The notes under the pieces are model-generated. The model was not told the DNA's origin and made no database searches. It saw only the letters and a list, made by a program, of their open reading frames with translations. This document shows positions 28,135-32,626 of a stretch of DNA of 64,000 bases, in pieces (position 1 is the stretch's first letter; each line of letters begins with the position of its first letter). Source of the DNA: Nocardiopsis flavescens (GTDB lineage Bacteria; Actinomycetota; Actinomycetes; Streptosporangiales; Streptosporangiaceae); assembly GCF_900141985.1 (NCBI RefSeq), contig NZ_FQZK01000001.1:186001-250000 (forward strand), written 5' to 3'. Both the position numbers and the translations under genes were made by a program.

Positions 28135-28148
28135 GGATAGATGCTAGC

Positions 28149-28160
28149 GCACATATGTGC
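28149..28160. promoter_or_regulatory. PadR-type operator
   Basis: GCACATATGTGC, a perfect 12-bp palindrome, with a second ATATGCAT element at 28171-28178. Both lie in the 118-bp gap between the divergent PadR and ArsR-SRPBCC genes. Confidence 0.7.
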
Positions 28161-28216
28161 ATGGTCCTCTATATGCATGGTCTCCTTCTGTTCCGAGAAC
28201 GATCCTCGAATATGCC

Positions 28217-28252: not shown

Positions 28253-29104
28253 ATGCACGAACGACTGGAGGCGCTGGGCGAACCCGCCCGGCTGCGCATC
28301 GCCCGGGCCCTGGCGGAGCGTCCGCTGTCGGTGGGGGTGGTCGCCGAGCGGACCGGCCTGCGCCAGCCGCAGGCCACCAAGCACCTGCAACGCCTGGAAC
28401 GGGTCGGCCTGGTGTCCTCGTACCGGGTCGGCAACCGGCGCATCTACGCGCTGGAGCCCGGGCCGCTGGGAGAGCTCGGCGGCCTGCTGGGCGGCCTCGC
28501 CGAGCGGGCGCGGGAGCACCGCGGCGCCTTCGACGCCCACGCCGCCGCGGTGGCCGCCGAGACGCGCGCCGCCGACCGCGAGCGCTGGGCCGACGAGCGG
28601 GCCTTCGCCTTCGAGCGGGTGCTGCCCGCGCCGCGCGCGGCCGTGTGGCGCCACCTCACCGAGCCGGTCCTGCTGGCCCGCTGGTGGGCGCCGGACGACC
28701 TGGCCGTCACCGAGGCCGCCCTGGAGCCCCGGCCCGGTGGCCGGGCGGTGCTGGCCTACCGCGACGCGGCCGACGCCACCGGGGCGGACGGCGTCGTGGG
28801 CCGCGCCGAGGGGACGGTGGACGCGGCGGCCGAGGGTGAGCGCCTCGACTTCCGCCTCTCCCCGCTGCTGCCCGGCGGCGGCGCCGCCTTCACCGGCCAC
28901 TACACGTTCGTGCTCGCCGACGCCGGCGGCGGGACCCGGCTCGGCGTGCGGCTGCGGATCACCGACACCACCGTGGCCTCCGCCGACTTCGTCGCGGGGA
29001 TCGGGGCGGGCTGGGAGCAGTCCCTGGACCGGTTCGCCGCGTCCCTGGCCGACGGCGCCCCGCACGGGGCGACACCGACCGACACCTCACGGAGCAGCAC
29101 ATGA
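28253..29104 (+). CDS. ArsR-family HTH fused to SRPBCC (AHSA1) domain
   Basis: A 283-residue fusion. Residues 1-85 are an ArsR winged helix (LEALGEPARLRIARALAERPLS, RQPQATKHLQRLERVGLV). Residues about 120-265 are an AHSA1-type SRPBCC domain (FERVLPAPRAAVWRHLTEPVLLARWWAPDD ... GAGWEQSLDRFAASL), a hydrophobic-ligand cavity. The fusion puts sensor and DNA binder in one chain. No ribosome site before ATG 28253; a promoter ending 6 nt upstream implies a leaderless mRNA. Its stop overlaps the next gene's start by 4 bp. Confidence 0.93.
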   Translation: MHERLEALGEPARLRIARALAERPLSVGVVAERTGLRQPQATKHLQRLERVGLVSSYRVGNRRIYALEPGPLGELGGLLGGLAERAREHRGAFDAHAAAVAAETRAADRERWADERAFAFERVLPAPRAAVWRHLTEPVLLARWWAPDDLAVTEAALEPRPGGRAVLAYRDAADATGADGVVGRAEGTVDAAAEGERLDFRLSPLLPGGGAAFTGHYTFVLADAGGGTRLGVRLRITDTTVASADFVAGIGAGWEQSLDRFAASLADGAPHGATPTDTSRSST

Positions 29105-29700
29105 GCGAGCACACCGGCCGCAGGGTCGTCGCCAACCTCAACCTCACCCTCGACGGGCGCTACTGCGGGCCCGCCGGCCCGCAGGACCACGCCTGGGTGG
29201 TGCCCTACGCCGTCACCGACCTGGCCCGCGACCACCTCACGGACCTGTGGCGGACCGCCACCACCGCGCTCATGGGGCGGGTCAACGCCGAGGGCTTCCT
29301 GGGGTACTGGCCGCCGGTCGCCCGCGACGAGGGGGCTGACCCCCGCGACCGGGGGTTCGGCGACTGGCTCGCCCGGACCGAGAAGGTGGTCCTGTCCCGC
29401 ACCCTGACCGCCTCCCCGTGGGAGGGCGTACGGGTCGAGAACGCGCCCGCCGCCGCGGTGGTCGACGCCCTGAGGGCGCGGGAGGGCGGGGACATCCTGG
29501 TGCCGTGCAGCGCCAGCCTCATCCGGCCGCTGCTCGCCGCCGACCGGGTCGACCGGCTGGCGCTGATGGTCGTCCCCGAGTTCGTCGGCGGCGGCCCGCG
29601 CCTGTTCGAGGACGGACTGCCCGCGCACCGGTGGTCCCTGGCCTCACACGCCGCGGGCGGGGACGGGGCGCTCGCCCTGGTCTACGACCGCCTGCGCTGA
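29101..29700 (+). CDS. RibD C-terminal/dihydrofolate-reductase-like protein
   Basis: A 199-residue protein: RRVVANLNLTLDGRYCGPAGPQDHAWVVPY, TALMGRVNAEGFLGYWP, VVLSRTLTASPWEGVRVE, GGDILVPCSASLIRPLLAADRVDRLALMVVPEFVGGGPRLFEDG. This is the YyaP/RibD-C NADPH-reductase fold; the folate-specific residues of true DHFR are not evident. Coupled by ATGA overlap to the ArsR-SRPBCC regulator, an arrangement repeated in many actinomycetes. A 16-bp perfect hairpin follows. Confidence 0.92.
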   Translation: MSEHTGRRVVANLNLTLDGRYCGPAGPQDHAWVVPYAVTDLARDHLTDLWRTATTALMGRVNAEGFLGYWPPVARDEGADPRDRGFGDWLARTEKVVLSRTLTASPWEGVRVENAPAAAVVDALRAREGGDILVPCSASLIRPLLAADRVDRLALMVVPEFVGGGPRLFEDGLPAHRWSLASHAAGGDGALALVYDRLR

Positions 29701-29746: not shown

Positions 29747-30172
29747 TCAGACCCGGGTCATGGTGGACTCGTAGCCGCCCCCGCCGGGGTAGACCCAGGC
29801 GCCGGCCACGGTGGAGCCGTCCGCGGAGAAGACGCCCTCGAAGTAGGCCGGCCCGCCGCGCGCCCCCGCCCAGATGGTCAGGGTGTCGCCGACCAGCTCG
29901 TAGACGTAGTCGAAGGTGTTGCCCCGGGCGTCGTAGAAGCGGGACGCCACGTCCGTGCCGACCGGCTCGCCGAACGGGTGCAGGTTCCCGATGACCTCCA
30001 GGCCGGTGACCGGCGCGCCGAACTGCTCCAGCTCCACGTGCTGGAGCAGGAAGAACCCGCCCTCCATCCACTCGTACCGCACGGTGCCGGCGGCGCCGCC
30101 GGTCACCTCCCAGGTGCCGACCAGCCGTCCCAGGGCCGTGACCGCCGCACTCGGCCGGATGTCCTCGTCCAT
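29747..30172 (-). CDS. DUF1579-like small protein in the ECF42 regulon
   Basis: A 141-residue soluble protein: VTALGRLVGTWEVTGGAAGTVRYEWMEGGFFLLQHVELEQFG and FYDARGNTFDYVYELVGDTLTIWAG. This is a lipocalin/DUF1579-like beta-barrel pattern with the GTW signature; ligand unknown. ATG 30172 has GAGGAGGA upstream. Its promoter, read on the minus strand, is GGGTGTCGG, 17 nt, CGAGGTG, the mirror image of the promoter of the divergent ECF operon, so it is a predicted ECF42 target. Confidence 0.85.
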   Translation of the reverse strand: MDEDIRPSAAVTALGRLVGTWEVTGGAAGTVRYEWMEGGFFLLQHVELEQFGAPVTGLEVIGNLHPFGEPVGTDVASRFYDARGNTFDYVYELVGDTLTIWAGARGGPAYFEGVFSADGSTVAGAWVYPGGGGYESTMTRV

Positions 30173-30206
30173 GTCGTCCTCCTCGTTCGGGGGTTGCACG
30201 GACACC

Positions 30207-30292
30207 TCGGGGCCGGGGCCCGCATCCCGACACCCCGCCAATGTGGTACACGTCACATGTCCAGGGTGTCGGAATCCCGGCGGCGGCCCCGA
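30207..30292. promoter_or_regulatory. Two mirror-image ECF-type promoters
   Basis: Plus strand: TGTCGG (30267-30272), 17 nt, CGA (30290-30292) in the context GGCCCCGAGGTG. Minus strand: TGTCGG (30232-30227), 17 nt, CGA (30209-30207) in the same context GGCCCCGAGGTG. This fits the ECF42 consensus as I recall it (TGTCGA around -35, CGA/TC around -10). Between the two -35 elements is ATGTG (30241-30245), 8 bp, CACAT (30254-30258), centred on the same axis. Confidence 0.82.
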
Positions 30293-30323
30293 GGTGGCGG
30301 TGAGAACCCACCGAGGAGGCCCC

Positions 30324-30974
30324 GTGAGCACCACCGCCGATACCGACACCGCCCCCGCCGCCGGGCGCCGCACGTCCCGCCGCCTGCTGGCCGCCGGAGC
30401 CCTGGCCGGGCCGGTCTTCTTCACCTCGGCCCTGGCCCAGATGCTCACCCGCGAGGGCTTCGACATCACCCGGCACCCCATCAGCCAGCTGGCCACCGGA
30501 GACCTGGGCTGGATCCAGATCGCCACCTTCGTCACCGCGGGCCTGGGCGCCCTGGCCCTGGCGGCAGGCATCGCGCGCACCCTCACCGAGGGCCTCGGAC
30601 GGCGGGCGCTGCCGGTGCTGACCGCGGTTTTCGGGGCCGGCCTGGTCGCGGCCGGGGTGTTCACCATGGACCCCGAGCACGGCTTCCCGGCCGGCACCCC
30701 CGAAGGCCCCGTGGCGCAGATGTCCTGGCACGGCATCGCCCACTCGGCCTCCGCCGCCGTCGCCTTCACCGCGCTGGCCCTGGCCGCCGCGGTGCTGGCC
30801 GTGCGCCACGCCCGGCGGCGGGCGGTCCCGCCCGCCGTGCTGGGCGGGGCCGCGGCGCTCGTGCTGTTCCTGCCGATGTCGCCCGACCACATGAGCGTCC
30901 AGATCGCCGTCAACGGCCTGGTCGCCTTCACCTGGGCGACCGCCGTGGCGCTGTGGCTGCGCCGCGCCGCCTGA
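30324..30974 (+). CDS. DUF998 membrane protein
   Basis: A 216-residue protein with about six hydrophobic segments and the DUF998 signature GFDITRHPISQLATGDLGWIQ; the histidine in SWHGIAHSASA is also typical. Function unknown. GTG 30324 has GAGGAGG upstream and lies 31 nt after the predicted CGA element, making it the first gene of the DUF998-YCII-ECF42 operon. Confidence 0.9.
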   Translation: MSTTADTDTAPAAGRRTSRRLLAAGALAGPVFFTSALAQMLTREGFDITRHPISQLATGDLGWIQIATFVTAGLGALALAAGIARTLTEGLGRRALPVLTAVFGAGLVAAGVFTMDPEHGFPAGTPEGPVAQMSWHGIAHSASAAVAFTALALAAAVLAVRHARRRAVPPAVLGGAAALVLFLPMSPDHMSVQIAVNGLVAFTWATAVALWLRRAA

Positions 30975-31016: not shown

Positions 31017-31388
31017 GTGAAATACCTGCTCCTGGGGTACACCCCGGCCCACGCCTGGGACCCCGAGACCGCCGACACCCCGTCCGAGGACGCGCTCGCC
31101 GCGTTCGCCGCCTACCGGAGGCTGGAGGAGGAGCTGCTCGACAGCGGCGAACTCGTCGCCACCGAGGGGCTGGGGCACCCCGCCGTCGGCACCACCCTGC
31201 GCCGCACCCCCGAGGGGGTGGTCGCCACGGACGGGCCCTTCGCCGAGCTCAAGGAGGTGCTGGCCAGCTTCGCCGTGCTCGACGTGTCCGGCCACGAGCG
31301 GGCGGTCGAGATCGCCGCGCGGATCGTGGAGGCGCTGGGCGAGCCCGTGGAGGTCCGGCCGATCATGGGCGAGGACTTCGCGGCGTGA
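31017..31388 (+). CDS. YCII-related (DGPF) protein
   Basis: A 123-residue YCII-fold protein carrying the DGPF motif (ATDGPFAELKE, residues about 70-80) that defines the partner proteins of ECF42 sigma factors. Its conserved His/Asp pair of the YCII pocket is not evident. GTG 31017, GAGGA upstream; its stop overlaps the sigma-factor start (GTGA). DGPF proteins are assumed to act with or be controlled by the sigma factor; biochemical role not known. Confidence 0.94.
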   Translation: MKYLLLGYTPAHAWDPETADTPSEDALAAFAAYRRLEEELLDSGELVATEGLGHPAVGTTLRRTPEGVVATDGPFAELKEVLASFAVLDVSGHERAVEIAARIVEALGEPVEVRPIMGEDFAA

Positions 31389-32626
31389 GCCCCGAGATCG
31401 AGGACCTGCTGCGCGCGGAGGCGCCGCAGGTCCTGGGCGCCCTGGTGCGGCGCCTGGGCCGCTTCGACCTCGCCGAGGACGCGGTGCAGGAGGCGCTGCT
31501 GGCCGCCGCGCGGTCCTGGCCGCGGGAGGGCGTGCCCCGGGAGCCGCGCTCCTGGCTCATCCGGGTGGGCTACCGCCGCATGGTCGACCTCCTGCGCTCG
31601 GACCGGTCCCGGCGCCTGCGCGAGGAGAGGGCCGGCGCGGCCGAGGCGGCCCTGCTCCACCCGGGCCGGTCGGCGCCCCCGGCCCCGGAGGCCGACGACA
31701 GCCTCACCCTGCTCCTGCTGTGCTGCCACCCGGCGCTGGGGCCCGCGTCCCGGGCGGCGTTGACCCTGCGGGCCGTGGGCGGCCTGACCACGGCCGAGAT
31801 CGCGCGCGCCTACGGCACCACCGAGGCCGCCATGGGAACGCGCATCGGCCGGGCCAAGAGGCGGTTGGCCAGCGCCGGGGCCCGGTTCACCCCGCCGGTC
31901 GGCGACGACCTGGAACAGCGGCTGGCGTCCGTGATGCAGGTGCTCTACCTGGTCTTCAACGAGGGGTACACCGCCACGTCCGGGGCGTCGCTGTCCCGCA
32001 CGGACCTGTCCGGCGAGGCGATCCGGCTGGCCCGCATGCTCGGGGAGCTGCGGCCCCACGACGGCGAGGCGGCCGGGCTCCTGGCCCTGATGCTGCTCAC
32101 CGAGGCGCGGGGGCCCGCCCGCACCGGGAGCGGCGACGAACTGCTGACGCTGGACCACCAGGACCGGAGCCGGTGGGACCGCGCCCTGATCCGCGAGGGG
32201 ACGGCGCTGCTCGACGCGGCCTGGGACCCGCGGGAGGCGGGGCCGTACCGGTTGCAGGCCGCGGTCGCGGCCGTGCACGCCGCGGCGCCGTCCCCGCGGG
32301 ACACCGACTGGACGCGGATCGCGGTCCTGTACCTGTGGCTGGAGCGGCTGTCGCCGAGCGCGCCGGTGCGGCTGGCCCGGGTGGCGGCGGTCTCCCGCGC
32401 GTACGGCGCCGGGCGCGGGCTGGCCCTGCTCGCCGACCTCGACCGGCGCCACGGCCTGGCACAGGACCCGCTGACGCGGCGCCGCCACCCCGCCGTCCTG
32501 GCCCACCTGCTGGAGGAGACCGGGGAGACGGGCGCGGCCGCCGCGGCCTACCGCCGGGCGGCGGCCCTGGCCGCCAACCCGGTCGAGGAGGGGTACCTGC
32601 TCGACCGGGCGGACCGCCTGGACTGA
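31385..32626 (+). CDS. ECF42-group RNA polymerase sigma factor
   Basis: A 413-residue SigJ/COG4941-type sigma factor: region 2 VRRLGRFDLAEDAVQEALLAAARSWP ... PRSWLIRVGYRRMVDLLRSD (residues about 20-75), region 4 LTLRAVGGLTTAEIARAYGTTEAAMGTRIGRAKRRL (about 125-160), then a long helical TPR-like C-terminal half (about 180-413) including VMQVLYLVFNEGYTAT. No anti-sigma gene is visible; in this group the C-terminal domain is thought to take over control. Coupled to the DGPF gene. Expected to recognise the TGTCGG-N17-CGA promoters at 30207-30292, giving autoregulation. Confidence 0.94.
   Translation: MSPEIEDLLRAEAPQVLGALVRRLGRFDLAEDAVQEALLAAARSWPREGVPREPRSWLIRVGYRRMVDLLRSDRSRRLREERAGAAEAALLHPGRSAPPAPEADDSLTLLLLCCHPALGPASRAALTLRAVGGLTTAEIARAYGTTEAAMGTRIGRAKRRLASAGARFTPPVGDDLEQRLASVMQVLYLVFNEGYTATSGASLSRTDLSGEAIRLARMLGELRPHDGEAAGLLALMLLTEARGPARTGSGDELLTLDHQDRSRWDRALIREGTALLDAAWDPREAGPYRLQAAVAAVHAAAPSPRDTDWTRIAVLYLWLERLSPSAPVRLARVAAVSRAYGAGRGLALLADLDRRHGLAQDPLTRRRHPAVLAHLLEETGETGAAAAAYRRAAALAANPVEEGYLLDRADRLD

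Follow-up and report, generated by a model that had tools for sequence, protein, structure and literature searches.

What switches an ECF42 sigma factor on, and what restrains it? ECF42 sigma factors are widespread, but the literature names no signal that activates them (PMC8999054), and neither an anti-sigma factor nor an interaction partner has been identified for the group (PMC8999054, PMC6180224). The described systems (S. venezuelae SVEN_0747/4377/7131, P. putida ECF-10 and S. meliloti RpoE10) combine sigma2 and sigma4 with a long C-terminal extension, carry a YCII gene directly upstream of the sigma gene, and use promoters with TGTCG(A/G) at −35, a 17-bp spacer and CG(A/T) at −10; the mapped RpoE10 promoters of S. 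meliloti read TGTCGG-N17-CGTC and start 35 bases after the first T (PMC6180224). A second relevant system is the SigG1-RsfG pair of Streptomyces tsukubaensis, an ECF56 sigma and its anti-sigma factor, respectively; their binding was demonstrated by two-hybrid and co-purification analysis, and the sigG1 transcript rises when rsfG is deleted (PMC7730460). A third is the family of Crp/GlxR/Rv3676 sites at divergent actinobacterial gene pairs, where TGTGAN6TCACA lies between the genes, about 50-60 bp upstream of their starts; M. tuberculosis CRP sites cluster at −60 to −40, with upstream sites going with activation and sites near the start with repression (PMC4117774). The Nocardiopsis flavescens locus described here resembles all three. 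It differs from the known ECF42 systems in that its −10 is CGAGGT, in that a divergent RsfG-like gene lies under a second, identical promoter, and in that a Crp box occupies the promoter axis; it differs from the Crp/GlxR/Rv3676 pairs in that the box stands midway between two ECF-type promoters at a fixed helical phase.

Within the window, by which we mean the whole 64-kb stretch of DNA analysed, Pfam searches agree with the gene content given by the first-pass annotation, DUF998-YCII-ECF42 reading rightward and one gene diverging from it. The DUF998 membrane protein gene (30324-30974, + strand; PF06197, E 2.8e-31) is followed by a YCII (DGPF-type) protein gene (31017-31388, +; PF03795, E 3.8e-8) and by the ECF42-type sigma gene (31385-32626, +), which overlaps the YCII stop codon and encodes 413 residues with sigma2, sigma4 and a DUF6596 extension (PF04542, PF08281, PF20239). 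Two traits of the group are evident: sigma2 and sigma4 are joined to a C-terminal extension of about 200 residues, and the YCII/DGPF gene sits beside the sigma gene, overlapping its start, an arrangement kept in the four-gene loci. DUF6596 spans residues 179-279, and no TPR family is among the Pfam matches of the extension at 1e-3. The ECF42 target promoter TGTCG(A/G)-N17-CG(A/T)C is found as to its −35, spacer and CGA, with GGT rather than C as the next letters; because the −10 of this branch is CGAGGT rather than CGWC, the ECF42 consensus invoked in the first-pass annotation agrees with the −35, the spacing and the opening letters of the −10 but no further. The locus departs from the group in having an anti-sigma-type gene nearby, an RsfG-family gene divergent from the operon. 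As the absence of such a gene is a remark of the literature and not a necessary feature, the assignment to ECF42 is supported on domain, neighbour and promoter grounds. Outside the conserved module, the window also contains a gene for an ArsR-type regulator with a fused AHSA1/SRPBCC domain, which overlaps a RibD_C reductase gene (28253-29700), and, upstream of a PadR gene (28135-28180), the repeated ATATGTGCATGG / ATATGCATGG, a possible PadR operator.

Both directions of transcription are headed by the same putative promoter. TGTCGG-N17-CGA had been seen back to back on the two strands, and the match extends to TGTCGG-N17-CGAGGTG, which occurs exactly at 30203-30232 (− strand), before the RsfG-like gene, and at 30267-30296 (+ strand), before the DUF998-YCII-ECF42 operon. 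Transferring the start from the mapped S. meliloti ECF42 promoters (PMC6180224 Table 1), with the first T of the −35 at −35, places the predicted +1 at 30197 (−) and 30302 (+), and downstream of both promoters a purine-rich ribosome-binding sequence, GAGGAGG, precedes a start codon 22-25 bases past the expected +1. These two copies, pointing away from each other, are the only ones in the window and form the only back-to-back pair found in the 7.17-Mb genome. The looser TGTCGG-N15..19-CGA occurs nine times in the window against 5.6 expected, near chance, so it is the long match, together with the pairing and the conservation, that makes the sites significant. The genome-wide scan suggested earlier was run as a pattern search with TGTCGN-N17-CGAGGT and gave five matches in 7.17 Mb against one for the control, the pattern read backwards; two of the five are the mirror pair, and the remaining three either fall within long open frames or lack a recognisable promoter setting. 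These pattern searches found no further convincing promoter of the same type elsewhere in the genome, and a wider regulon is rejected. The intergenic region has no Rfam match that would indicate an RNA element. The axis of the two promoters, (30232+30267)/2 = 30249.5, is also the centre of the ATGTG-N8-CACAT dyad (30241-30258), just as had been proposed for −35 elements facing each other around it.

Orthologous loci were collected with a DUF998 protein search, blind to DNA motifs, which yielded 60 loci, 35 of them with the full four-gene module; adding the window, two loci found by scanning the phylum for the pattern and six found by searching Micrococcales brings the set to 44 loci, which are orthologues and not 44 independent events. 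The 35 come from Nonomuraea, Streptosporangium, Nocardiopsis, Micromonospora, Lentzea, Amycolatopsis, Nocardia, Actinomadura, Streptomyces, Oerskovia, Agromyces and others; for one locus, L080, tblastn recovered YCII, ECF42 and the left gene but not DUF998. Both promoters are present with a 17-bp spacer in 44/44 loci, at scores of 19-22 of 22, and in shuffled regions the score of the weakest real pair, 19, was reached once in 2640. We encountered no orthologous locus in this set that kept the genes without the TGTCGG and CGA elements, and the view that the sigma serves its own operon and one further gene as a four-gene local regulon gains support from this comparison. It is very improbable that the mirror elements are operator half-sites of a DNA-binding protein instead of promoters. 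The whole region is indeed a long imperfect inverted repeat, but the spacer is invariant, the elements stand at the correct distance and in the correct orientation to both genes, and the architecture is that of mapped ECF42 promoters. Furthermore, in a Nocardia locus (L035) that has lost the left gene, decay is confined to the left −10; the left −35, the central box and the right promoter are kept.

What occupies the axis between the promoters? The dyad corresponds to a Crp-type box, TGTGGTACACGTCACA (30242-30257, centre 30249.5, no strand), which agrees with the consensus TGTGAN6TCACA at 9 of 10 letters (shuffle p 0.0005). The comparison with relatives that the first-pass annotation had called for shows the dyad retained in the same place in 36 of the 44 loci, each with a box of at least 8/10 letters (shuffle p ≤0.008 each). 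The box centre lies 17.5 bp from the first T of each −35, that is, at a predicted −52.5 at both promoters. To the right −35 this distance is 17.5 bp in 35/36 box loci; to the left −35, 31/36 show the same 17.5 bp and two differ from it by a single base. The remaining three, two from Micromonospora and one from a Micrococcales genome, have 27.5 bp, an insertion of one helical turn on this side in distinct lineages. When the phylum was scanned for the mirror pattern without reference to the dyad, three loci came up, the window and two others, and the box was central in each (control, 0). In a column profile of the 30 loci whose promoters are 35 bp apart, both −10s, both −35s and the box stand out as peaks, and the linkers from box to −35 are flat. 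The box is missing in 8/44 loci, all from one Micrococcales group, in which the promoters are 39-43 bp apart; a promoter spacing of 34-36 or 45 bp occurs only together with the box, which suggests that Crp sets the spacing. The strongest independent points, in our view, are that the linkers are not conserved, that +10-bp cases occur in two lineages, that the spacing changes on loss of the box and that the left −10 has decayed in L035. In the box-less Micrococcales loci (L146-L149, L151, L038, L040 and L042) a loose, different symmetric sequence, CGARRA...TYTCSG, lies between the −35s, and another regulator has possibly taken the central place there; as a second dyad this sequence was rejected, being significant in no single locus (p 0.49-1.0).

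The N. flavescens genome encodes a canonical Crp (L071:1489-2175) that matches the structure of M. tuberculosis CRP, Rv3676 (3d0s), at E 5e-80, has a recognition helix identical to that of Rv3676, and is 97% identical to the Crp of Nocardiopsis sp. N85. Exact TGTGAN6TCACA occurs 10 times in the genome against 0 for the reversed-pattern control. The earlier idea that a second protein on the axis could gate both promoters is strengthened by the comparison and acquires a named candidate. It is improbable that the box is bound by another Crp/Fnr-type or an unrelated regulator: the genome encodes at least two other good HTH_Crp proteins and the Micrococcales carry a different centre, but the consensus is the Crp one, the canonical Crp shares its recognition helix with Rv3676, which binds TGTGAN6TCACA, and in the cyclase-linked paralogue (L070) the Glu of the recognition helix is missing. 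A canonical Crp (E<1e-77) is present in every tested genome with a box-bearing locus. Among the box-less Micrococcales, three (Agromyces) are without Crp and five have it; joint loss of Crp and box in the three Agromyces was considered as proof and set aside, since the other five make the correlation one-way, the box implying Crp and not the reverse. Two side observations concern these proteins. At L070 (83-1737) in the N. flavescens genome, a nucleotide-cyclase-like gene overlaps that of a Crp-like regulator with the recognition helix SRAAVNKAL (vs SRETVNKAL); the two may form a private cyclic-nucleotide circuit aimed at another target. In L068, a record titled Glycomyces fuscus, Crp is 96% identical to that of N. 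flavescens, and the label is probably wrong.

In which direction would Crp act? Since upstream CRP sites go with activation in M. tuberculosis (PMC4117774), activation is favoured, and by this analogy Crp is more likely an activator than a repressor here. Repression from the same box, with a dimer beside both −35s blocking both polymerases or alpha-CTD access whenever Crp is active and so keeping the positive-feedback loop off, seems to us unlikely, although it has points in its favour: judged from the box position, a single dimer would reach from about −64 to −41 at each promoter and border on sigma4, and loci without the box retain the promoters at a looser spacing of 39-43 bp, which implies that the promoters themselves do not need Crp. 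Against this, the box leaves −35 and −10 free, exact helical phasing is commoner in activation, and the M. tuberculosis sites that repress are those near the start. Activation is itself not certain, because −52.5 is not known as a standard class I or class II position of E. coli Crp.

The divergent gene (29747-30172, − strand) encodes a protein of 141 residues. The first-pass annotation had it as a DUF1579-like further target; its place under the mirror promoter stands, but the protein is not merely another target, for Foldseek and phmmer identify it as an RsfG homologue. AlphaFold models it as a ten-strand barrel (pLDDT 94.8), the best solved structure in Foldseek is RsfG of S. tsukubaensis (7QH3; TM 0.94, 68% identity), and phmmer gives E 9.6e-60 against 7QH3. 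The protein itself has no Pfam match, and a distant relative, L132, passes the DUF1579 cut-off. As in the SigG1-RsfG system, an RsfG-family gene thus lies beside the gene of an ECF sigma with a C-terminal extension; however, SigG1 is an ECF56 sigma with SnoaL_2 and the module sigma is ECF42, and sigG1 and rsfG are co-transcribed whereas the module genes diverge. By analogy with RsfG, the left protein is a candidate anti-sigma factor that most likely restrains the ECF42 sigma. A competing view, which we consider possible if somewhat doubtful, is that the protein is an output of the system, a ligand-binding barrel that handles a stress molecule. It would fit with lower-ranked Foldseek matches to lipocalin/FABP-like binding proteins, with the small conserved proteins and glyoxalase-like domains that are ECF42 targets elsewhere, and with RsfG homologues that are near no sigma gene (L130-L132). 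It sits less easily with the high identity to RsfG, for which both binding to an ECF sigma and antagonism of it have been shown, and with the synteny with ECF42, which holds in the 44 loci, where the left gene is divergent, and recurs in a rearranged genome. In the latter (G518, Microbacteriaceae; L129/L165, 2467-3820 of L165), an RsfG domain is fused to an alpha/beta-hydrolase directly downstream of YCII-ECF42, and the fusion gene has its own ECF42-type promoter, TGTCAA-N17-CGATGT. A Granulicoccus locus (L045) keeps the operon and its promoter and has neither the RsfG gene, the left promoter nor the Crp box, though Crp is present; neither RsfG nor the box is therefore indispensable.

Is the module sigma the one that reads these promoters? 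The N. flavescens genome contains two other sigmas with DUF6596, in each case encoded downstream of a YCII gene, and the promoters of these paralogous operons are single and without a Crp box (TGTCGA-N17-CGAC and TGTCGA-N17-CGTC). Recognition by ECF42 is supported by the same −35, spacer and CG(A/T) at these two operons and at the mapped S. meliloti RpoE10 promoters. The −10 letters are CGAC and CGTC in the operons of the same genome (L007 and L009) and CGAGGT in the module. The module sigma and its paralogues have fixed differences in residues 59-69 and 141-151, by position region 2.3/2.4 and region 4.2, respectively, and the three ECF42 sigmas of the genome are probably insulated from one another by −10 preference.

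We propose that the 90-bp region is a two-way switch: using its two copies of one promoter, ECF42-RNAP would transcribe leftward as well as rightward. The rightward transcript would supply DUF998, YCII and more ECF42 sigma, a positive feedback; the leftward one would supply the RsfG-family protein, the candidate brake, a negative feedback. If the sigma reads both promoters, as we infer, then it would amplify itself and make its candidate brake in fixed proportion. SigG1, unlike the autoregulation proposed here, has no peak at its own promoter (PMC7730460). One Crp dimer on the axis, adjoining and helically phased with both −35s, would tune the two promoters together and, at a predicted −52.5 on both sides, would couple the switch to the Crp state of the cell. 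Sequence comparison establishes the mirror promoters, the Crp box, its constant phase and the kinship with RsfG, whereas recognition by the ECF42 sigma, binding of Crp, the sign of its control and the antagonism are inferred. The best reading of the locus, which we hold with moderate confidence, is that polymerase carrying ECF42 transcribes the operon of this sigma and a candidate antagonist from the mirror promoters, with Crp gating both. Counting against it, the known RsfG acts on a co-transcribed ECF56 sigma and not on ECF42 (PMC7730460), the −10 is unlike the published ECF42 form, and the box is absent from eight Micrococcales loci, of which five belong to Crp-bearing genomes. Only tentatively do we extend it to a deeply conserved switch, in which one Crp dimer controls both mirror ECF promoters at once, one leading to the sigma and the other to its antagonist.

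Finally, the identity of the dyad as a Crp box and of the divergent gene as an RsfG-family member are new beyond the first-pass annotation and relative to the literature searched. Nothing in that literature describes Crp acting at ECF42 promoters. ECF promoters in general are not known to require an additional activator. If the proposed switch is correct, then ECF holoenzyme transcription would here depend on an extra activator touching both polymerases, and ECF42 sigmas would have a dedicated soluble anti-sigma factor and a cAMP/Crp input. With a Crp site phase-locked to two ECF promoters over many actinobacterial genera, the need for an activator is directly testable on a 130-bp fragment, and the lineage that has the promoters without the Crp box offers a natural control. 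The ECF42 group would thereby gain named candidates, an RsfG-family antagonist as partner and Crp as signal input: a switch found in many actinobacteria may give a poorly understood sigma group a candidate brake and a candidate nutrient-status input through the global regulator Crp.
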